Assembly (NCBI GenBank): GCA_026393675.1
Contig: JAPKZQ010000043.1
Coordinates: 62,001 to 126,000, forward strand
Origin: Acidobacteriota bacterium
GTDB taxonomy: Bacteria; Acidobacteriota; Vicinamibacteria; Vicinamibacterales; JAKQTR01
DNA length: 64,000 nt
Direction of reading: 5' to 3'
The notes below the pieces were generated by a model. The model was not told the origin of the DNA. It was given only the letters and a program-made list of their open reading frames with translations, and ran no database searches. The position numbers and the translations under genes were made by a program. Below are positions 6,157 to 44,805 of this stretch, one piece after another (position 1 is the stretch's first letter; each line of letters begins with the position of its first letter).

Positions 6157-7565
6157 TGATGCGCCATCGAACCTCTTCACTCGTTGCGTGCGCGGCTGGC
6201 GTGGCCCTGTTCATCCTGGCCGCGACCACGCCGTTCCCCGCGGCTTCGCGCCTGGAGTCGCTCCAGACACCGCCTCCGCAGGCGCAGCCGCCCCAGCAGC
6301 AGTCCGAGATCGTGCTGAGCCTGAGCGGCGAGCCTGGCGCACGGCCGCGTTATGCCGTTCCTGATTTCATTGCGCGCACGGCCGATGCGGAGACCGCCGA
6401 TGCCGCCAGACTGCTGGGCGCCGTGCTGTGGGACGATCTCGCCTTCGAGCGCGAGTTCTACATGGTCCCGCGTGACACGTACCGATCCATCCCGGCGGCA
6501 ACCTCGATGCAGACCGTGCCGTTTGATCGATGGCGTGAGCTGGGTGCTGACGCGCTGGTGATGGGCAGCGTCGAAAAGACCGGCCCCACCACCTTCCGTG
6601 TTGAGGTTCGGCTGCTTGAGGTGCGATCCGGCCGGTCGGCCATGGCTCGCGAGTACAGTGGGTCGACATCGAACCCGCGTGTGTACGCGCACACCGCGGC
6701 CGACGAGATTCACCAAGCGCAGCGGGCGCTGCGTGGCGTCGCGCGCACGAAGCTCGCGTTCTCGTCCGATCGTGATGGCGATCGGATGGCGGGCACCGTG
6801 CAACAGCGTGGGGTCAAAGAGATCTACATTTCCGACTACGATGGCGCGAATCAGCGGCGCGTCACCGTCTCGAAGACCCTGAATCTCTATCCGACCTGGT
6901 CTCCCGATGCCCGGACGATCGCATACACGTCGTATCGCACGGGATTCCCCGACATCTATCTGTCGCTGATCTATCAGGGAGTCCTCGAGACGCCCACCGG
7001 GGGGAAATATCAGAACTGGCTGTCGGCGTGGTCGCCGGATGGCACCAAGCTGTGCTTTACGTCGACGCGCGATGGGCACCCCGAGTTGTACGTGATGAAC
7101 CGGGACGGCTCAAGTCTCCGGCGCCTCACCAACAACCCGGCCAACAATACGACGCCCACGTGGTCTCCGAGCGGCACCCAGATCGCGTTCACGTCCGATC
7201 GCGGCGGGACGCCGCAGATCTACGTCATCGACGTCGACGGCCTGAATGTCCGCAAACTGACGAACGAATCCTATTGCGACCGTCCCACGTGGTCGCCCGC
7301 ACCGTTCAACGAAATCGCGTATGCATCGCGGACAGGCTCGGGGTACGATATCAAGGTCTACACGCTGGCGACCCAGGAGGTCAGACAGTTGACGTCCGGC
7401 GAAGGCAGTAACGAAAGCCCGAGTTACGCGCCCAATGGCCGGCACGTGGCGTTCTCGTCCACGCGCGGCGGGAAACGACAGATCTTCACAATTGGCCGGG
7501 ACGGCCAGGGACTGAAACAAGTGACCACGGTCGGCAATAATCAGACGCCCGATTGGTCCAGGTAG
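6156..7565 (+). CDS. tolB: Tol-Pal periplasmic beta-propeller TolB
   Basis: About 469 residues. A signal peptide (roughly 1-30, with the hydrophobic run LVACAAGVALFILAATT) is followed by the TolB N-terminal domain (about 50-190; GAVLWDDLAFEREF, ALVMGSVEK) and a six-bladed propeller of PD40/WD40-like units. The propeller shows repeated patterns such as YPTWSPDARTIAYTS, LSAWSPDGTKLCFTS, TPTWSPSGTQIAFTS and SPSYAPNGRHVAFSS. TolB shuttles between Pal and TolA in the periplasm. A GTG at 6153, ATG at 6156 and ATG at 6159 are all possible starts; I used 6156, which overlaps the previous stop as TGATG. Confidence 0.94.
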   Translation: MMRHRTSSLVACAAGVALFILAATTPFPAASRLESLQTPPPQAQPPQQQSEIVLSLSGEPGARPRYAVPDFIARTADAETADAARLLGAVLWDDLAFEREFYMVPRDTYRSIPAATSMQTVPFDRWRELGADALVMGSVEKTGPTTFRVEVRLLEVRSGRSAMAREYSGSTSNPRVYAHTAADEIHQAQRALRGVARTKLAFSSDRDGDRMAGTVQQRGVKEIYISDYDGANQRRVTVSKTLNLYPTWSPDARTIAYTSYRTGFPDIYLSLIYQGVLETPTGGKYQNWLSAWSPDGTKLCFTSTRDGHPELYVMNRDGSSLRRLTNNPANNTTPTWSPSGTQIAFTSDRGGTPQIYVIDVDGLNVRKLTNESYCDRPTWSPAPFNEIAYASRTGSGYDIKVYTLATQEVRQLTSGEGSNESPSYAPNGRHVAFSSTRGGKRQIFTIGRDGQGLKQVTTVGNNQTPDWSR

Positions 7566-7593
7566 CGGGACCGTAGGTACGGAGATGAAATCA

Positions 7594-8190
7594 ATGCATA
7601 GCCGATGGGTGTCGAACGGCGGGTGGCTTGTCGCGGTGACCGTGGCCCTAGTGCTGAGTGGAGCGTGCGGCGCCAAGAAGCCCCCGGTCGCACAGCCGGT
7701 TCAGCCTCCGACAACCACGACACCGATGACAGACGTCGTCCCGCTGACGCCGCCCGCGCCGACGCCGGTTTCTGTCACCGAGTCGCCCCTGGTGACGCCG
7801 AGGATGACTGACGATCCCATGGCGTCGCGATCGATTGACGACCTCAATCGCGAATCGCCTCTGCAACCCGCGTTCTTTGAGTACGACAGCGCTGAGGTGA
7901 GCGCGGCCGCACGCACGGCGCTCGATGCCAATGCCGCCGTGCTGCGCAAGTATCCGGCGTGGGCCGTCACGGTCGAAGGCCACTGCGACGAGCGTGGGAC
8001 GGCCGAATACAATAGCGCGCTCGGCGAACGGCGCGCCGCCGCGGCACGGACATACCTGGTATCGCTCGGCATCTCGGCCGAACGCCTGCACATTGTCAGT
8101 TACGGCAAGGAATTCCCGTTCGATCCCGCCCATGCCGAATCGGCGTGGGCGAAGAATCGTCGGGCCCATTTCGTGATTACGACGAAGTAA
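7594..8190 (+). CDS. pal: peptidoglycan-associated lipoprotein Pal
   Basis: A 198-residue outer-membrane lipoprotein. A signal peptide ends in a lipobox-like LSGAC with the lipidated cysteine at C25. A proline-rich linker follows, then an OmpA-like peptidoglycan-binding domain (about 95-198). That domain shows EGHCDERGTAEYNSALGERR and the terminal NRRAHFVI. It anchors the outer membrane to murein and binds TolB. Of two ATGs, 7585 abuts the GGAG sequence while 7594 lies nine bases from it, so I chose 7594. A fragment resembling the end of such a gene occurs at 48281-48376. Confidence 0.95.
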   Translation: MHSRWVSNGGWLVAVTVALVLSGACGAKKPPVAQPVQPPTTTTPMTDVVPLTPPAPTPVSVTESPLVTPRMTDDPMASRSIDDLNRESPLQPAFFEYDSAEVSAAARTALDANAAVLRKYPAWAVTVEGHCDERGTAEYNSALGERRAAAARTYLVSLGISAERLHIVSYGKEFPFDPAHAESAWAKNRRAHFVITTK

Positions 8191-8214
8191 CGGTTCGACA
8201 AGCGAGATGACATC

Positions 8215-9057
8215 ATGAAGCAACCAGTCCGCCTGCTGACTCTGGGAATCGTGCTGCTGACCGTCGCCACCTCGGTGCCGCTCGAGGCTGCCAACAAAGA
8301 GCATCTGCAGATGATGGCTGATCTCCGCATCCTCCAGCAGCAAACACAAATGCTCCAGGCAAACCTGACGGCCCTGACCGACGCGCTCAAGACGGTATCG
8401 GCGCGCCTGGACGAACAGGCCGGCACCGCCCGCAAGGCATTTGCGGATCAAAAGTTGATTGTGGAGGGGGTCGCAACTGACCTCCGCGTGGTTCGCGAAA
8501 GGGTCGACGAGAACAACGTCCGGCTCGGGTCGCTATCGCAGGAGGTCGACGCGGTTCGGGTGGCCCAGGCGGCCAACCCGCCCGCGTCCGTGCCAGCGGC
8601 GGTGCCCCCGGTCGTCGACCCGTCGGCCGCGGCGCAGAACCCGCCCACGACACCGCCCGCCAACCCCGGCGTATCGCCGCAGCGCCTGTTCGAATCGGCT
8701 CGGGCCGACTACTATGCGGGCCAGTGGAGTCTCGCCATTTATGGCTTCGAAACCTACATCAAGACGTTTCCGAAAAGCGATCTGGTCGACGACGCGCAGT
8801 ACTACATCGGCGAGACGTACTATAGCTCGGGCCGATTCCGCGAGGCGGTGGCCGCCTACGATCGGGTGATCTCGAACTACGTGTCGAGCAATACGCTGCC
8901 CGATACGTACTACAAGCGTGGGCTTGCGCTGAAGACGCTCGGCCAGATTCCGCAGGCCCGCGAGTCATTCGATTTTGTGGTGAAGAACTACCCGGACAGT
9001 GATGCGGGCCGGCTGGCCAAACAGGCCCTCGATCAACTGAGTCGATCAGGGAAGTAA
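8215..9057 (+). CDS. cpoB: Tol-Pal associated TPR protein CpoB (YbgF)
   Basis: A 280-residue periplasmic protein with a signal peptide (about 1-24). A trimerising coiled coil rich in Gln and Leu spans roughly 25-110, then come a Pro/Ala linker (about 120-155) and three TPR units (about 160-275; SPQRLFESARADYYAGQWSL, DDAQYYIGETYYSSGRFREA, PDTYYKRGLALKTLGQIPQA). This is the CpoB/YbgF architecture; in E. coli the protein links Tol-Pal to the PBP1B-LpoB synthase. It sits 24 bases after pal as the last tol operon gene. Confidence 0.93.
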   Translation: MKQPVRLLTLGIVLLTVATSVPLEAANKEHLQMMADLRILQQQTQMLQANLTALTDALKTVSARLDEQAGTARKAFADQKLIVEGVATDLRVVRERVDENNVRLGSLSQEVDAVRVAQAANPPASVPAAVPPVVDPSAAAQNPPTTPPANPGVSPQRLFESARADYYAGQWSLAIYGFETYIKTFPKSDLVDDAQYYIGETYYSSGRFREAVAAYDRVISNYVSSNTLPDTYYKRGLALKTLGQIPQARESFDFVVKNYPDSDAGRLAKQALDQLSRSGK

Positions 9058-36638: not shown

Positions 36639-39359
36639 GTGTCACCTTCCGATTCATCTCCCTCACCCAAGGGTCTGGCCACCGCCAGCCCGGCGATGCG
36701 GCAGTACCTGGACGCCAAGCGCCAGTACCGTGACGCTATCGTTTTCTTTCGCATGGGTGACTTCTACGAGATGTTCTACGAGGACGCGCTGACGGCCTCC
36801 CGGGCGCTCGACCTGACGCTGACCTCGCGTTCGAAGGACGCCGAAGGCGGCAACATCCCGATGTGCGGCTTGCCCTATCACGCGGCCGAATCGTACTTGG
36901 CGCGCCTGGTGAAGAAGGGCTTTCGCGTGGCGATCTGCGAACAGGTTGAGGACCCGCGCAAGGCGAAGGGCCTCGTGCGGCGCGAGGTGGTTCGCGTGGT
37001 GTCGCCTGGAACCTTTGCGGAAGCCGGCTACCTCGACGCGCGCGAATCGGCCTTCCTTCTCGCGGTGGCCCCCGCTGCGTCGTCCTCGCCCGAGGCCCCG
37101 CCGACCGTCACCCAGGCCCGAGGCGCGGCCGACCCGTCATCCGCCAGCGTTCCGGTCACCGGCGCAGCGCTGCTGGACCTGTCGACCGGAGAGTTCATGG
37201 CGGCCGAGTATGCAGGTCGGGACGGCCTTCGGCAACTCGCCGACGAGATTGCGGTGCTGCGTCCTCGGGAGATCCTGCTCGGGACGAGCGTCGATGCCAC
37301 CGCCATCCTGCCCCCGTCCGTGTTGTCGGGTGCCGTCATCACCAGGGTCGATGACTGGCTGTTCGATCACGACACCGCCCGGCGAACATTGCTGACGCAG
37401 CTTCGCACACAGGCGCTCGACGGCTTCGGTCTCGAACCCCACCCGGCCGCCGTGCGCGCGGCCGGCGCGCTCGTGCATCACCTTCAGGACACGCAGAAAG
37501 CGGAACTCACGCATATCCGCGGCATTACGTTCAAGGAGCAGGCGGACCGGCTCGTCCTCGATCCGTTGACCCTCAAGCACCTCGAAGTCATCGACTCGCT
37601 CGACGGCGGGCGTGCCGGTTCACTGCTGCACGAGATCGACCGGACCATCTCCGCCATGGGGGCGCGTCTGCTGCGCGCCTGGCTCCTGCGCCCACTGGTC
37701 TCGCTGGAGCGCATTCGCGACCGGCTCGACGCCGTGGAGGATTTCGCGTTCCGCACAACCGAGCGCGGAAAGTTCCGTGATGCCCTTCACGCGGTCCATG
37801 ACCTCGAACGGCTCGTGTCGCGGGCGGCCCTCGGCACGGCAGGGCCCCGCGACCTGGTCGCGCTCAAGACCTCGCTTGGCGCCATCCCCCGCCTGCGTAC
37901 CTTGCTGGACTCGTTTCAGGCTCCGGTCGTTTCCAGTCTGGTTGCGCAGTTGGACGATGTGCCGGAGGTCAGGGACGCGATTGAACGAACCATCGTCGAC
38001 GAACCGTCCGTGCTGGCGCGTGATGGCGGTTGTGTGCGCGACGGGGTCGACGAGGAACTCGACCAGTTGCGCCTCATCTCGCGGTCGGGCAAGCAGGTGA
38101 TCGCCGAGATGGAAGAACAGGAGCGCACGCGGACCGGCATCGCGTCGCTCAAGGTGCGCTACAACCGCGTGTTCGGGTACTACATCGAAGTCTCGAAGTC
38201 GAACCTGCACGCGGTGCCCGCCGACTATCAACGCAAGCAGACGATCGCGGGCGGCGAGCGATTCGTGACGCCGGCGCTCAAGGACTACGAAGAAAAGGTC
38301 CTGGGGGCCGACGAGCGGATTCTGGAGCGGGAAATCGAGATGTTCGAGGTGTTGCGCGCCCAGGTCGCCGCCGAGGCGCCGCGCATCCAGGATACGGCGC
38401 GCGCCGTCGCCACGCTCGACGTGCTGGCCGCGCTCGCCGACGCGGCCGCGCTCCATAATTTCGTCAAGCCTCACGTCCATGACGGTGACGACATCACGAT
38501 TATCGACGGCCGGCACCCGGTGGTCGAGCGCTATTCGCCCGATCCGTTTGTCCCGAATGACACCGTCCTCGACGGGTTGACCCGCCAGTTGGTGATCCTC
38601 ACGGGGCCGAACATGGGCGGAAAGTCCACCTACCTCCGGCAGATTGCGCTCATCTGCCTGATGGCCCAGGCCGGATCGTTTGTCCCTGCCCGCGAAGCCA
38701 AACTCGGCCTGGTGGACCGGATCTTTGCGCGCGTCGGCGCCTCGGACAACATCGCACGCGGCCAATCGACCTTCATGGTCGAGATGCAGGAGACCGCCAA
38801 CATCCTGCACTCGGCCACGTCCCGGAGCCTCGTCATCCTCGATGAGATTGGGCGGGGCACCTCGACATTCGACGGTCTCAGTATCGCGTGGGCGGTGGCG
38901 GAGTATCTGGCGACCACCAGCCGTGCGCGTCCCAAGACCGTGTTTGCCACGCACTATCACGAACTGACCGACCTGGCCGATACCGTGCCCGGGGTCGTCA
39001 ATGCGCATGTCGCAGCCCGCGAATGGAAGGACGACATCGTCTTTCTGCGCAAGGTCGTGCCAGGCCGGTCGGACCGCAGCTACGGCATCCAGGTGGCGAG
39101 ACTGGCCGGATTGCCACCCGAGATCATCGCGAGGGCGCGCAGCATTCTCGGGGCGCTCGAGCAGGATGCACTCGCGCGCGGCGGACGGCCGTCGGCGACG
39201 GGCGCAGGGGCGGATCCCCGCCTGCAACTGGGGCTGTTCGAAGCGCACACGCCGGTGGATGCCCTGGCGAAGAGAGTGCGGGAGATCGACGTCGACCGCT
39301 TGACGCCGCTCGAGGCGCTGACCCTGATCGCCGACCTCAAGCGGGAACTCGAAGAATGA
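36639..39359 (+). CDS. mutS: DNA mismatch repair protein MutS
   Basis: A 906-residue MutS. The mismatch-binding domain has the Phe-x-Glu motif in RMGDFYEMFYEDA. Connector, lever and clamp domains follow (KVRYNRVFGYYIEVSKSN). The ATPase has Walker A GPNMGGKSTYLRQIALI, Walker B SLVILDEIGRGTSTFDG and the ATHYHELTDLA switch. MutL is not seen. The start is uncertain: the GTG at 36639 has AGAGG close by, while the ATG at 36621 would add six residues. The stop overlaps the next gene as ATGA. Confidence 0.95.
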   Translation: MSPSDSSPSPKGLATASPAMRQYLDAKRQYRDAIVFFRMGDFYEMFYEDALTASRALDLTLTSRSKDAEGGNIPMCGLPYHAAESYLARLVKKGFRVAICEQVEDPRKAKGLVRREVVRVVSPGTFAEAGYLDARESAFLLAVAPAASSSPEAPPTVTQARGAADPSSASVPVTGAALLDLSTGEFMAAEYAGRDGLRQLADEIAVLRPREILLGTSVDATAILPPSVLSGAVITRVDDWLFDHDTARRTLLTQLRTQALDGFGLEPHPAAVRAAGALVHHLQDTQKAELTHIRGITFKEQADRLVLDPLTLKHLEVIDSLDGGRAGSLLHEIDRTISAMGARLLRAWLLRPLVSLERIRDRLDAVEDFAFRTTERGKFRDALHAVHDLERLVSRAALGTAGPRDLVALKTSLGAIPRLRTLLDSFQAPVVSSLVAQLDDVPEVRDAIERTIVDEPSVLARDGGCVRDGVDEELDQLRLISRSGKQVIAEMEEQERTRTGIASLKVRYNRVFGYYIEVSKSNLHAVPADYQRKQTIAGGERFVTPALKDYEEKVLGADERILEREIEMFEVLRAQVAAEAPRIQDTARAVATLDVLAALADAAALHNFVKPHVHDGDDITIIDGRHPVVERYSPDPFVPNDTVLDGLTRQLVILTGPNMGGKSTYLRQIALICLMAQAGSFVPAREAKLGLVDRIFARVGASDNIARGQSTFMVEMQETANILHSATSRSLVILDEIGRGTSTFDGLSIAWAVAEYLATTSRARPKTVFATHYHELTDLADTVPGVVNAHVAAREWKDDIVFLRKVVPGRSDRSYGIQVARLAGLPPEIIARARSILGALEQDALARGGRPSATGAGADPRLQLGLFEAHTPVDALAKRVREIDVDRLTPLEALTLIADLKRELEE

Positions 39360-40918
39360 GGCGATGGGCTGCGGCAGCCGCCGGTGTCCTGGTTCTGGTC
39401 TGGTGCGCCGGCTGCAGTCGCCCGACTCCCCCGCCCCCCGAGATCATCCGCGTCGCCATTGTCAGTTCGCCAAACAACCTGGATCCGCGCATCGGCACCG
39501 ATGAGGTCTCGCAGCGCCTGCACCAGTTGATCTACGACCAGCTGTTTCGCATCGACGACCAGCTCCGTGTGTCGCCGGGGCTGGCCACCGACTGGACCCA
39601 ACCCGATTCGACGACCTACGTCGTGCACCTCAGACGTGGCGTGCGCTTCCACGATGGCCACGAACTGACATCGGCGGATGTCGCATACACGTTCAACAGC
39701 TTCCTGGACCCGGCGTTCGCGTCACCGCGCAAGGGCGCGTATCGCCTGCTGAAGCGTGTCAGCGCCGTGGATCGCTATACCGTCGAATTCGTGTTGCAGG
39801 AGCCGTTTGGATCGTTTCCGGTCAACCTTGTCATGCCGGTCGTACCGGCCGGCGCTGGCACCGCGTTGAAGCAGCAGCCCATCGGCACGGGCCCGTATCG
39901 GTTCGTCCGCCACGTCGCCGACGATTATGTCGAGCTGACGGCCTTCGATGCCTACTTTGAAGGCGCGCCCCGCAACAAGGGACTCCTGCTTCGCGTCGTC
40001 CCCGACGACATGATGCGCGGCCTCGAGTTGCAGCAGGGATCGGTCGATCTGGTCGTGAACGATCTCGCCCCAGACCTGGTTCATCAACTTCGGACGAGTA
40101 GCACGCTCCGCGTTATCACGTCGCCAGGCACCGACTACGCCTACGTGGGCATCAACCTGCGCGATCCGGCGCTCCGCGACCGGCGAGTCCGTCAGGCTCT
40201 CTGCTACGCCATCGATCGGCAGGCCATCGTTGATCACCTGCGCCGGGGCCTCGCTCTTCCCGCATCGGGAGTGCTGCCGCCCATGTCGTGGGCGTTCGAG
40301 TCGGCCGTGCGTCAGTACCCGTTCGACCCCGCTCGCGCCATGGCGCTGCTCGACGAGGCGGGCTACCGCGACCCCGATGGCGAGGCCCCAGCCCCCCGGC
40401 TGTCGTTGACGTTGAAGGTCTCGTCGACCGAATTCAACCGCCTGCAGTCATCCGTCATCCAGGAGAGCCTCCGGCGAGTGGGCATCGCGCTCGACGTCAG
40501 GACGTACGAGTTCGCGACGCTCTACAACGACGTCCTGCGTGGGAATTTCCAGTTGTTCACGCTGCAATGGGTCGGCGTGTCCGATCCGGACATGCTGCGG
40601 CGCGTCTTCCATTCGAAACAGATGCCGCCAAGCGGATTTAATCGCGGCTTTTTCTCGAATCCTGCCGTCGATGATCTGATTGACCGGGCGACCCGGTCGA
40701 CCGACGACACCGAGCGCCGCACGCTGTACGGCGATGTTCAGAGGCTGGTAGCCGAAGAGGTGCCGTACGTCAGCCTCTGGTACAAGACCAACGCCGTGGT
40801 CGCCCAGCGCAACCTGCAGGGCATTGACCTCGGTCCAGCGGCCGACTTCCGATTTCTTCGCCACGTGTGGCGCGGTGTGAACGGAACGCCCGCGACATTG
40901 CCAGCGAGCGGTCAGTGA
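39356..40918 (+). CDS. peptide/nickel-type ABC substrate-binding lipoprotein
   Basis: A 520-residue family 5 extracellular solute-binding protein. The signal peptide ends in a lipobox around VWCAGC, so it is lipid-anchored. Core motifs are SSPNNLDPRIGTDEVSQRL, VHLRRGVRFHDGHELTSADV, PIGTGPYRFV and RDRRVRQALCYAIDRQAIV. Such proteins bind peptides, nickel or other small solutes. No ABC permease or ATPase genes are adjacent, so this is an orphan receptor or works with a distant transporter. It overlaps both mutS (ATGA) and the next gene (TGATG). Confidence 0.9.
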   Translation: MRRWAAAAAGVLVLVWCAGCSRPTPPPPEIIRVAIVSSPNNLDPRIGTDEVSQRLHQLIYDQLFRIDDQLRVSPGLATDWTQPDSTTYVVHLRRGVRFHDGHELTSADVAYTFNSFLDPAFASPRKGAYRLLKRVSAVDRYTVEFVLQEPFGSFPVNLVMPVVPAGAGTALKQQPIGTGPYRFVRHVADDYVELTAFDAYFEGAPRNKGLLLRVVPDDMMRGLELQQGSVDLVVNDLAPDLVHQLRTSSTLRVITSPGTDYAYVGINLRDPALRDRRVRQALCYAIDRQAIVDHLRRGLALPASGVLPPMSWAFESAVRQYPFDPARAMALLDEAGYRDPDGEAPAPRLSLTLKVSSTEFNRLQSSVIQESLRRVGIALDVRTYEFATLYNDVLRGNFQLFTLQWVGVSDPDMLRRVFHSKQMPPSGFNRGFFSNPAVDDLIDRATRSTDDTERRTLYGDVQRLVAEEVPYVSLWYKTNAVVAQRNLQGIDLGPAADFRFLRHVWRGVNGTPATLPASGQ

Positions 40919-43863
40919 TGATCCGGTTGGGTCGATGGGTAGCGTGGGGATTCGCGATCGGGCTCTGTCTCTGGGCGGCCGAGGCACAGGGACAGACCAG
41001 GTACGACTCCCGCCTTCACTTCCGCGTCATCCACACCGATCATTTCGTCATCTACTTTCATCAGGGTGAGGAACGGATCGCCAGCCGTCTGGCGGGCATG
41101 GTTGAGGCGGTTCGCCGGGATGTCGCCGCCCAACTGGTCCTTGATGCACCTGACCAGATCCACGTGGTGCTCGTCGATCAGACCGACGTCTCCAATGGAT
41201 GGTCCACGCCCCTCCCGTACAACACCATCGAGATCGCTGCGACCCCGCCGCCGTTGACGTCGCTGCTCGGCAACTATGACGACTGGCTCAGGCTGGTGCT
41301 CGTGCACGAGTACACGCACATCGTCCATCTGGATCGCGTGGGCGGTTGGATGCGGATCTTCCGGCGGACACTCGGCCGGCATCCGATGTCGTTCCCGAAC
41401 CTGTTCCTGCCGACCTGGCAGGTGGAAGGGGTGGCCACCTACGTCGAAAGCGCGCTCACGGGCCGCGGACGCGTTGGTGCTGCCGAGACCCGAGCCATCC
41501 AGGACGAGATCGCCGCATCCAGGGGACTGATGCCGATAGACCGTGCCGGAGGCGGACTGGTGGCCTGGCCCGGCGGAAACACTCCGTACTTCTACGGCGG
41601 AGCGTTCAGCGACTACCTGGCGAGCCGCGACGGACCGGATCGTCTCGGCCAACTGGCACGCGCCACGTCGTCTCGCCTGCCGTTTCTCGGTGAGGGCGCC
41701 TTCACGTCCGTCTTCGGGGCCTCTTCGCAGACACTGTGGCATCAATTCCAGGCCCAGCGGGCCTCGGCCTCGCACGACATGCCGCCACCCACAGACGCTC
41801 GGCGGTTGACCCAGGATGGGTTCATGACGTCGGGGCCAAGATACTCGCCTGGGTGTGGGAATGGTGCTCCGCGAGTCCTCTATTCGACACTCACGCCCGA
41901 GCGATTTCCGAACATCAAGGAGATCGCGGCCGATCGACGCGTGGCCAGAACGGTCACCACGAGATACCTGGGAGAATCACTCTCGACCGACGGTCGCTGG
42001 GTGTTCTTCGATCAAATTGAATTCGACGGACCGGTGTCCCGGTTCCGCGATGTCTACGCGGCGGATTTGAACACGACCAGACTCGTGCGCCTCTCGCACG
42101 GTGCACGCATGTCCGATCCAGAGGTGTCTACGGATGGGACGCGCCTCGCGGTCGTCGTTCAACGCGCGGGCGACAGCGTGCTGGCCGTCTACCGACTCTC
42201 ACGGCCCAGCATGGACACGCCGCCCGTCATGGACCGCCCCGCCGTGCTGACCGTCGCTGAAGACGGATGTCATTTCGCGACGCCGCGATGGTCGCCCGAT
42301 CTGACACGCCTTGCGGCCACACGACAGTGCGAGGGGCGTCCTCCGGAGATCGTCGTCATCGACGGCACCAATGGAGGCGTGACACCGGTCGTCTCCGATC
42401 GTCGGTCTCGCAGCATCACGCCGGCGTGGTCGCCTGATGGTCAGGCGCTCTACTTTGCGTCAGACAGAGACGGCTCCCGATTCCAGATCTTTACAATTGG
42501 GACGGGAGGCACGTCGCCAGGGGCTCCACGACAGGTCGTCTCCGCAACTGGCGGCGCCACCGCTCCGGACGTGTCGCCGGACGGACGTTCGCTCCTCTTC
42601 GTGGGCGTGACAGCGGCCGGATACGACATCTTCGAAGCGTCGCTGACTTCAACGCCTGCCGCGAGTGCATCCCGTGGAGACACGCCATCGGTGCCAGTCG
42701 AGCAAGACAGGCCGTCCCCACAACCGTCGCGCGACGTCCCGGAGCCGATCAAGGGCGATCGGTCGTACTCCCCGTGGTCCACGTTATGGCCCCGGGCATG
42801 GTCCCCGGCCTTCACGACATCGAACCAACGGACCGACGTTGGGGCGACCGTCGAGGGAAGCGACGTGCTGGGACGCCATGCCTATCTGGCGACGGTGACG
42901 TGGACGGTCGCCAGACCGACAACGGACATGCCGATGGCGTCGTCCGCACGCCCGAATATTGACGTCAGCTACGTGTACGGCCGCTGGCGCCAGACCCTCC
43001 TGCTGTCGGCGTCGGACACGCTCGAGTCGGTCGCCTTCATCGATCGGGCATCGGGCCGTGTCGTTCGTGCCGACGCGTGGGATCGACAACTGTTCGCCGG
43101 CGTACTCGTCGCTTGGCGCCGGGTACGTCTGTCACAGTCGTGGCTCTCAGGCGTGGTGCTTGATCACGAACGCTTCGCCAGCGCGACCGTCATTCCCGCC
43201 CGGAACCGCAATGCGCTCCGCTCCGCCTGGACCCTGAACTCCTCACGGTTGTACGGCTACTCCATCAGTTCTGAAGAGGGGATTCGATCGACCGCCACGA
43301 TTGAGCGGGTCACGCCGGCCCTCGGCGCCGATGGCTCGGCGACGGCAGCGACAGTGGACCTTCGCGCATACCTGCCCGGTGGTCCACTCCATTCCGTTGT
43401 CGCGGTGAGATTCGCCTCGGGCGTCAGCACCGGCGATCCGGGCGAGCGCCGAGTCTTCAGCCTAGGCGCGTCCACCATCCCGTCGTCACCTTTCGATTTC
43501 GGTCAGCGAGCCGTCGGCATGATGCGCGGTATTCCCATCGACTCCCGGGTTGGAACCGCGGTCGCGGTGACCAACCTGGACTATCGATTTCCCCTCGCGA
43601 GGATTGAACGCGGATTCCGGACGTGGCCGATCTTCCTGAACGGGTTGCACGGTGCCATCTTTGCCGACGTGGGCGCGGCCGGCGCCACGCTCGGTTCCAT
43701 GGGTTCGCCGCTCGTTTCAACAGGCGTCGAGATCGCGTCCGACGTCACGCTCGGGTATTTCCTGCCACTCACCGTCGCGCTTGGCGCCGCGTGGACGCAC
43801 GATGCCCGTGAGGCGCCTGCGAACCGGCTGGCCGTGTTCCTGCGCCTCGGGCGCGCGTTCTAG
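40918..43863 (+). CDS. metalloprotease-propeller-outer membrane barrel fusion protein
   Basis: A 981-residue exported protein in three parts. After a signal peptide (about 1-25) comes a peptidase-MA-like gluzincin domain with zinc motif H130-E131-x2-H134 (VLVHEYTHIVHLD) and a downstream glutamate E170 in LPTWQVEGVATYVES. A TolB/PD40-type propeller follows (about 290-600; STDGRWVFFDQ, TPAWSPDGQALYFASDRDG, APDVSPDGRSLLFVG). The last 340 residues have alternating hydrophobic strands and end FLRLGRAF with a terminal phenylalanine, as in BamA-recognised barrels. It overlaps the upstream binding lipoprotein by one base. Function is not known. Confidence 0.8.
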   Translation: MIRLGRWVAWGFAIGLCLWAAEAQGQTRYDSRLHFRVIHTDHFVIYFHQGEERIASRLAGMVEAVRRDVAAQLVLDAPDQIHVVLVDQTDVSNGWSTPLPYNTIEIAATPPPLTSLLGNYDDWLRLVLVHEYTHIVHLDRVGGWMRIFRRTLGRHPMSFPNLFLPTWQVEGVATYVESALTGRGRVGAAETRAIQDEIAASRGLMPIDRAGGGLVAWPGGNTPYFYGGAFSDYLASRDGPDRLGQLARATSSRLPFLGEGAFTSVFGASSQTLWHQFQAQRASASHDMPPPTDARRLTQDGFMTSGPRYSPGCGNGAPRVLYSTLTPERFPNIKEIAADRRVARTVTTRYLGESLSTDGRWVFFDQIEFDGPVSRFRDVYAADLNTTRLVRLSHGARMSDPEVSTDGTRLAVVVQRAGDSVLAVYRLSRPSMDTPPVMDRPAVLTVAEDGCHFATPRWSPDLTRLAATRQCEGRPPEIVVIDGTNGGVTPVVSDRRSRSITPAWSPDGQALYFASDRDGSRFQIFTIGTGGTSPGAPRQVVSATGGATAPDVSPDGRSLLFVGVTAAGYDIFEASLTSTPAASASRGDTPSVPVEQDRPSPQPSRDVPEPIKGDRSYSPWSTLWPRAWSPAFTTSNQRTDVGATVEGSDVLGRHAYLATVTWTVARPTTDMPMASSARPNIDVSYVYGRWRQTLLLSASDTLESVAFIDRASGRVVRADAWDRQLFAGVLVAWRRVRLSQSWLSGVVLDHERFASATVIPARNRNALRSAWTLNSSRLYGYSISSEEGIRSTATIERVTPALGADGSATAATVDLRAYLPGGPLHSVVAVRFASGVSTGDPGERRVFSLGASTIPSSPFDFGQRAVGMMRGIPIDSRVGTAVAVTNLDYRFPLARIERGFRTWPIFLNGLHGAIFADVGAAGATLGSMGSPLVSTGVEIASDVTLGYFLPLTVALGAAWTHDAREAPANRLAVFLRLGRAF

Positions 43864-43914: not shown

Positions 43915-44805
43915 ATGATGCCGAAACTCCCCTACCATCCAGGTCTGCCCTTTACATTCGGCGGCCTCGAGCAGGGACCCGACTCGTTCGACCGCGCGAA
44001 GGCTGTGGTCCTTCCCATCCCGTTTGAGCGCACCACGTCGTTCGTGTCGGGCACCAAGAATGGACCGCGCGAGATCATCGCCGCGTCGAGCCAGGTTGAG
44101 TTGTACGACGAGGAGCTTGGGAAAGAGATCTCCGACGTCGGCATCTACACGCTACCAGCCATGGAGCTGCCGTTTGCCCGCACCGAGCAGGCGTTTGCCG
44201 AGATCCAGCGCACCGCCTCATGGCTGGCGGCATCGGACAAGTTCTTCGTGGCGCTCGGAGGCGAGCACGCGCTGACCGCCCCACTGGTGGCGGGCGTCGC
44301 CGAGCAGCATGCCGGCCTCAGCGTCCTGCACATTGACGCCCATGCCGACCTGCGCGACAGCTACCTGGGCGATCCGCACAGCCACGCGAGCGCCATGCGC
44401 CGGGTGCTTGAACACGCGCCGGCCGTCCAGGTGGCCATCCGGAATCTGTCGGCGCCGGAAGCGCAGGCTCTCCCGTCACTCAACACGACGGTCTTCTTCG
44501 ACTGGAATATGCGGGACGACCCTCAGTGGATGGAGCGCGCGGTCGAGAAGCTCAGCCCGAAGGTTTACGTCACCATCGACTGTGACGGTCTTGATCCGGC
44601 CATCATGCCGGCGGTTGGCACGCCCGAACCCGGCGGATTGAGCTGGCGCGAACTGCTCACGCTGCTCAAGCTCGTGATGGCTCGGCGCACCGTCGTTGCC
44701 TGTGATGTCGTCGAACTCTGCCCGCTCCCAGGCGTCGTGGCGCCCAACTTCCTCGCGGCGCGCCTGGTCTACAAGCTGGTGGGATATCGATTCCTGGCCC
44801 GCTAA
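43915..44805 (+). CDS. speB: agmatinase/arginase (ureohydrolase) family enzyme
   Basis: A 296-residue ureohydrolase. All manganese ligands are present: GGEHALTAPL (His), HIDAHADLRDSYLG (Asp, His, Asp) and TIDCDGLDPAIMPAVGTPEP (two Asp). The pattern is that of the agmatinase/SpeB group, which makes putrescine and urea from agmatine, but other guanidino substrates are possible. No arginine decarboxylase lies in the window. Two ATGs (43915, 43918) stand in tandem. The stop codon is embedded in an inverted repeat with 44846-44854. Confidence 0.88.
   Translation: MMPKLPYHPGLPFTFGGLEQGPDSFDRAKAVVLPIPFERTTSFVSGTKNGPREIIAASSQVELYDEELGKEISDVGIYTLPAMELPFARTEQAFAEIQRTASWLAASDKFFVALGGEHALTAPLVAGVAEQHAGLSVLHIDAHADLRDSYLGDPHSHASAMRRVLEHAPAVQVAIRNLSAPEAQALPSLNTTVFFDWNMRDDPQWMERAVEKLSPKVYVTIDCDGLDPAIMPAVGTPEPGGLSWRELLTLLKLVMARRTVVACDVVELCPLPGVVAPNFLAARLVYKLVGYRFLAR

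Follow-up and report, generated by a model that had tools for sequence, protein, structure and literature searches.

A single gene in the window (the whole 64,000-nucleotide stretch of DNA analyzed here, from an Acidobacteriota bacterium of the order Vicinamibacterales) encodes one chain in which a gluzincin-type zinc peptidase is followed by a TolB-like beta-propeller and an outer-membrane barrel, an architecture confirmed at the level of the predicted structure. Assigned by the published description of its architecture, the protein falls in the WD40-Omp85 subfamily, one of the ten Omp85/TpsB subfamilies defined by Heinz and Lithgow (2014, PMC4104836). This appears to be a known, widespread subfamily in which the catalytic domain has apparently been overlooked.

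Domain architecture and predicted structure

The open reading frame spans positions 40918-43863 of the forward strand, with an ATG at 40918 and a stop codon at 43861-43863, and translates into 981 amino acids, the last of which is phenylalanine. The first-pass annotation had proposed that one chain of 981 residues combines a gluzincin, a PD40/TolB-like propeller and a barrel, with an HEYTH...E zinc site and a terminal phenylalanine; translation, AlphaFold2 modelling and fold matches bear out this architecture, and the zinc site is seen at residues 130-134 and E170. The full-length AlphaFold2 model, built on an alignment of 73 sequences (A2), has a pLDDT of 90.9 and a pTM of 0.92. Along the chain, a putative signal peptide with a short linker (residues 1-25, 40918-40992; a hydrophobic N-terminus and a low-confidence helix at 2-22) is followed by the peptidase domain (residues 26-292, 40993-41793), a propeller of 24 strands (residues 293-580, 41794-42657), a linker with low pLDDT at 585-610 (residues 581-624, 42658-42789) and an Omp85-type barrel (residues 625-981, 42790-43860), all on the forward strand. 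The linker carries the conserved Y617 and the first part of the motif YxPxxTLxPRxWxP; Y617 and P625 are invariant in A2.

The whole-chain prediction, suggested earlier as a check on the presence of a barrel, yields one of sixteen strands within residues 627-977, which superposes on the Deinococcus radiodurans BamA (8xnb) with a VIA-align Z of 22.9 (3.5 A over 316 residues); the propeller superposes on Escherichia coli TolB (1crz) with a Z of 26.9 (2.3 A over 240 residues). Because the full-length fold search listed mostly propellers and barrels, the peptidase domain was also folded alone (pLDDT 91.1). Its top match is lugdulysin, of family M30 (7bb8; Z 16.6, rmsd 4.0 over 231 residues), followed by M1 aminopeptidases and M9 collagenases, with gluzincins overall at Z 14-17. 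Family M48 is absent among the 50 peptidase fold matches listed, which is no evidence against kinship.

Profile searches see less of this architecture. In the window protein, the only Pfam match is to PD40 repeats (E 9.7e-15), and the Omp85 family PF01103 stays below Pfam detection; in an alignment of the window protein and 19 relatives from the same order (A1), PD40 is found in 20/20 sequences, PF01103 in 16/20 and the BSP peptidase family in 5/20. POTRA domains gave no Pfam match in these 20 proteins, and residues 26-580 are taken up by the peptidase and the propeller, with the linker at 581-624. Two simpler identities were rejected: BamA or TamA, given that the chain lacks POTRA domains, and the TolB equivalog, for which the protein scores 76.8 bits against a cut-off of 343.15. 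The Omp85 loop-6 motif is nonetheless well preserved in A2, with R870 and G871 (43525-43530) each conserved in 71/73 sequences and acidic residues at 888 and at 917 each in 70/73; R870 and the two acidic residues presumably correspond to the R-E-D contact of BamA. The host genome also has separate POTRA-bearing Omp85 genes and eight M48-family matches elsewhere, so that the gluzincin-barrel protein adds to the standard machinery.

Zinc site and peptidase class

The HEYTH zinc motif (H130, E131 and H134; 41305-41319), the third zinc ligand E170 in the EGxAT motif (41425-41427), the candidate catalytic tyrosine Y224 in the PYxxG motif (41587-41589) and G227 are invariant across A2 (73/73), a wide but biased set, gathered by patterns over the HExxH and EGxAT motifs. 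Two unbiased checks agree. All 20 full-length sequences from the same order, collected with a whole-protein query and no motif selection, keep the zinc residues, and a profile of the barrel only (A5), searched against 247 genomes of the phylum, turned up 19 proteins whose N-terminus is complete, 18 of which have HExxH followed by EGxA at a spacing of 30-54 residues. The conservation of H130, E131, H134 and E170, on which the earlier proposal had been made to depend, thus extends to unselected and motif-selected relatives alike. The exception (L173, from genome G168) reads HGLNR within ORF residues of about 120-175, having lost the zinc site while keeping the rest of the architecture, and is a possible pseudopeptidase.

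With HExxH, a downstream glutamate and a zincin fold, the domain has the features of the gluzincins, clan MA(E). Profile alignment places the PYxxG motif of Tyr224 on PYVKG of the M1 enzyme 3cia, the site that the catalytic tyrosine occupies in M1 enzymes. Membership in M1 itself was rejected: the exopeptidase motif GxMEN is absent from residues 26-131 of the window protein, and the gap between H134 and E170 is 35 residues, as against HExxH-x18-E. Peptidase_MA_2 matches 25 of the 73 relatives (E <= 0.1) but not the window protein; the M48 profile gave no match to the window protein and weak ones to 3/73 relatives, a distant kinship within the clan being possible. Taken together, the conserved motifs suggest that the zinc protease is probably active.

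The main challenge to this conclusion is that the peptidase fold might act mainly as a binding module in an assembly or translocation factor, with proteolysis a minor activity. The BamA-type barrel with its loop-6 RG motif, the BamB- and TolB-like propeller and the retention of the fold without zinc residues in the L173 protein would all suit such a factor, but the full catalytic set, Tyr224 included, is invariant in 73/73 sequences and no other domain of the chain is as well conserved as the peptidase; we consider this explanation unlikely.

Conservation and distribution of the family

Mean identity in A2 is 0.52 for the peptidase, a figure raised somewhat by the selection of the sample on two peptidase motifs, against 0.46 for the propeller and 0.43 for the barrel; the peptidase domain has 25 near-invariant columns. 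The three domains also agree in their pairwise distances (correlations of 0.87-0.91), which is what joint inheritance would produce. A comparison of one close pair of genomes (G051 and G034; dN 0.019, dS 0.072, dN/dS about 0.27) supports purifying selection on the gene.

An alignment-based scan found relatives encoded at 547 loci or more (at least 547), in many phyla. Going by record titles, the best 80 of these at least 547 loci come from Acidobacteriota, Aminicenantes, Nitrospirota, Gallionellales, Desulfobacterota-type bacteria, Myxococcota, Gemmatimonadota and some Gammaproteobacteria; the relatives include proteins of Anaeromyxobacter terrae SG22 and Desulfurivibrio sp. AMeS2. Within the host's own order, Vicinamibacterales, 22 of the 60 sampled genomes give a strong full-family match. 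One record titled Bifidobacterium breve (L069, CALQBJ020000200.1) has Vicinamibacterales genes in the usual order and is probably a mislabelled or contaminated MAG. No relative was found in the plasmid collection, and a scan of genome and viral contigs with single-sequence peptide patterns returned none, where the alignment query did match.

The host itself carries a paralogue of the same gluzincin-PD40-barrel architecture (1049 aa; contig C44, L194 1163-4312, reverse strand). It reads HELTHIFE...EGLS and belongs to a divergent subfamily with a 30-residue HExxH-EGxA spacing, which marks the more distant subfamily.

Genomic neighborhood and the upstream lipoprotein

In Vicinamibacterales, the typical gene order is mutS, an SBP gene (not always present), the barrel gene, an agmatinase and a TPR protein. 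In the window, these genes lie on the forward strand: mutS at 36702-39359 (start approximate), the gene for an SBP family 5 lipoprotein at 39356-40918 (PF00496, E 4.3e-82) and the agmatinase-like gene, a syntenic downstream neighbor, at 43915-44805 (TIGR01230, 219 bits against a cut-off of 174). Polyamine enzymes, namely a deoxyhypusine-synthase-like protein, AguB and AguA, are also encoded downstream of the barrel gene (L060 12038-13117, L063 10444-13491), in a block conserved in several relatives.

The first-pass annotation read the lipoprotein and barrel genes as a translationally coupled pair whose products might act together on peptides. The TGATG overlap between them is real, but the lipoprotein gene also overlaps mutS by four bases (ATGA), so that three genes are chained together and these two do not form a pair of their own. 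There is no support for the joint action, because the two genes are separable both ways. A genome of the same genus (G001; L197 7342-9836 on contig C22) keeps the SBP gene (89% identical), and the barrel gene is cleanly absent from the gap between SBP and agmatinase, while mutS, SBP, agmatinase, the TPR protein and an aldehyde dehydrogenase are 80-91% identical. Since other families of the order share this synteny, the gap is most simply explained by loss, and the barrel gene, cleanly missing from a complete genome of the same genus, is not essential there. Conversely, two genomes of the sister genus (G002 and G003) have the barrel gene and no SBP ortholog, only homologues at 28-31% identity elsewhere.

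The wider survey of gene neighbors, proposed earlier as a check on this partnership, turned out against it. The SBP gene lies immediately upstream of the barrel gene in 10 of the 21 assessable Vicinamibacterales loci; elsewhere in this set, the position is vacant or is taken by an AmpG-family permease or an SBP remnant, such as the fragment in L090. Among the loci sampled outside the order, none has an SBP gene beside the barrel gene, 57 other loci have none of the window's four neighbor genes, and Pfam tallies of the flanks of about 50 distant loci revealed no recurrent partner gene. The AmpG-family muropeptide permease occupies the SBP slot in L065 (7587-8954) and, by eye, in L093 (about 6890-8360), a hint at cell-wall peptide recycling.

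These observations bear on the possibility that the two proteins form a peptide-scavenging pair, in which peptides of environmental or cell-wall origin, released by the peptidase, would pass to the lipoprotein and on to an inner-membrane importer. The TGATG overlap, the adjacency in nearly half of the assessable loci, the AmpG-family permeases in the SBP slot and the permease genes elsewhere in the host, including two on contig C39 that have no adjoining SBP, would fit such a pair. The SBP is, however, an orphan by position, with no permease match on the window's contig, and the same-genus genome with the SBP but no barrel gene, the sister-genus genomes with the barrel and only distant SBP homologues (at the 30% level), the SBP fragment and the 57 loci devoid of any window neighbor all speak against it. 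We therefore regard scavenging as improbable and judge the upstream lipoprotein to be a lineage-specific operon neighbor, outside the device.

Proposed role

Both ends of an Omp85 barrel lie in the periplasm, and the peptidase and the propeller should therefore be periplasmic. Since its peptidase lacks GxMEN and is joined to a BamA-type barrel and a propeller suited to docking, the protein is best read as an envelope endopeptidase that would act on proteins in transit or stalled at the outer membrane. We tentatively favor a zinc endopeptidase that faces the periplasm on an Omp85 barrel and would trim or clear outer-membrane, lipoprotein or surface-protein clients, a proposal that we hold as possible rather than established. 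The chain would be exported and its barrel inserted in the outer membrane, with the propeller and the peptidase on the periplasmic side; the propeller may serve as a docking platform, the barrel might exert some gating, and the peptidase would cut clients in transit or misfolded, serving quality control or maturation much as BepA does, but tethered to its own barrel. BepA, YcaL and LoiP are zinc proteases linked to BAM clients (PMC13067283; PMC8423444). Several observations weigh against this proposal: with eight M48-family matches in the host, this would not be its only clearance protease; the gene is dispensable in G001, which lacks it; the L173 protein has no zinc motif; no recurrent partner outside the order hints at clients; and PF01103 escapes detection in the window protein. 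A stronger form of the proposal, a self-contained machine in which the barrel engages client strands, the propeller docks them and the built-in zinc protease cuts, seems to us unlikely.

The first-pass annotation had suggested processing or screening of proteins in the periplasm or at the surface. A role in periplasmic protein processing can reasonably be proposed; action at the surface is less likely, given that the N-terminal domains are expected on the periplasmic side and that in PlpD the N-domain has been shown to stay periplasmic (PMC11116518). Surface display would have the barrel export its own peptidase and propeller, the type Vd route once proposed for PlpD. An enzyme placed N-terminal to an Omp85 barrel invites this reading, and the same option is raised for the 'Metallo' class in the section of Heinz and Lithgow on that class (PMC4104836). 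Yet in PlpD, the archetype, the N-domain remains periplasmic (PMC11116518); here some 555 folded residues, a propeller among them, would need to pass through the barrel, and the chain has no POTRA domain. Surface display is therefore quite improbable and, like the SBP partnership, is ranked below the BepA-like clearance reading.

Construction of the outer membrane is the work of Omp85 proteins, and the way in which clients that are stalled or immature are recognized and cleaved there is still to be explained. A widespread Omp85 subfamily with an intact zinc protease offers a testable handle, in one gene with a defined catalytic glutamate. If the protease domain is general, it would correct the picture of WD40-Omp85 as a mere BamA-BamB-like fusion; if the self-contained machine proves true, diderm bacteria of many phyla would possess a built-in, unrecognized processing or clearance station.

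Comparison with known systems

The closest described relative is the WD40-Omp85 class, likened to a BamA-BamB fusion, which shares the N-terminal TolB-like propeller, the Omp85 barrel and the lack of POTRA domains and is of uncharacterized function; the description, in its passages on this class, covers the WD40 domain only and leaves a peptidase unmentioned (PMC4104836). In the open-access literature, we found the combined architecture only in Heinz and Lithgow and in passing citations of the class, and no later description of a gluzincin domain in it. The 'Metallo' class is separate and is defined, in the same source's account of it, by PF00149 (PMC4104836). PlpD and the patatin-Omp85 proteins likewise place an enzyme, periplasmic as it would be in the window protein, N-terminal to an Omp85 barrel (PMC11116518). 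There, however, the enzyme is a lipolytic patatin joined to one POTRA domain, whereas the window protein has a zinc peptidase and a propeller and no POTRA. PF00149, for its part, is presumably the calcineurin-like phosphoesterase family, although the 'Metallo' class is called metalloproteases.

BepA shares the HExxH...E gluzincin logic and the placement of a zinc peptidase at the site of outer-membrane assembly (PMC8423444, PMC13067283), but it is a separate periplasmic M48 protein on BAM, whereas the window peptidase is fused to its barrel and has its top fold matches in M30, M1 and M9. Lugdulysin, the best fold match of the peptidase, is a stand-alone staphylococcal enzyme with 12% identity. 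TolB shares the propeller fold and the PD40 repeats; the window propeller, far below the equivalog cut-off (76.8 against 343 bits), differs in being fused to other domains.
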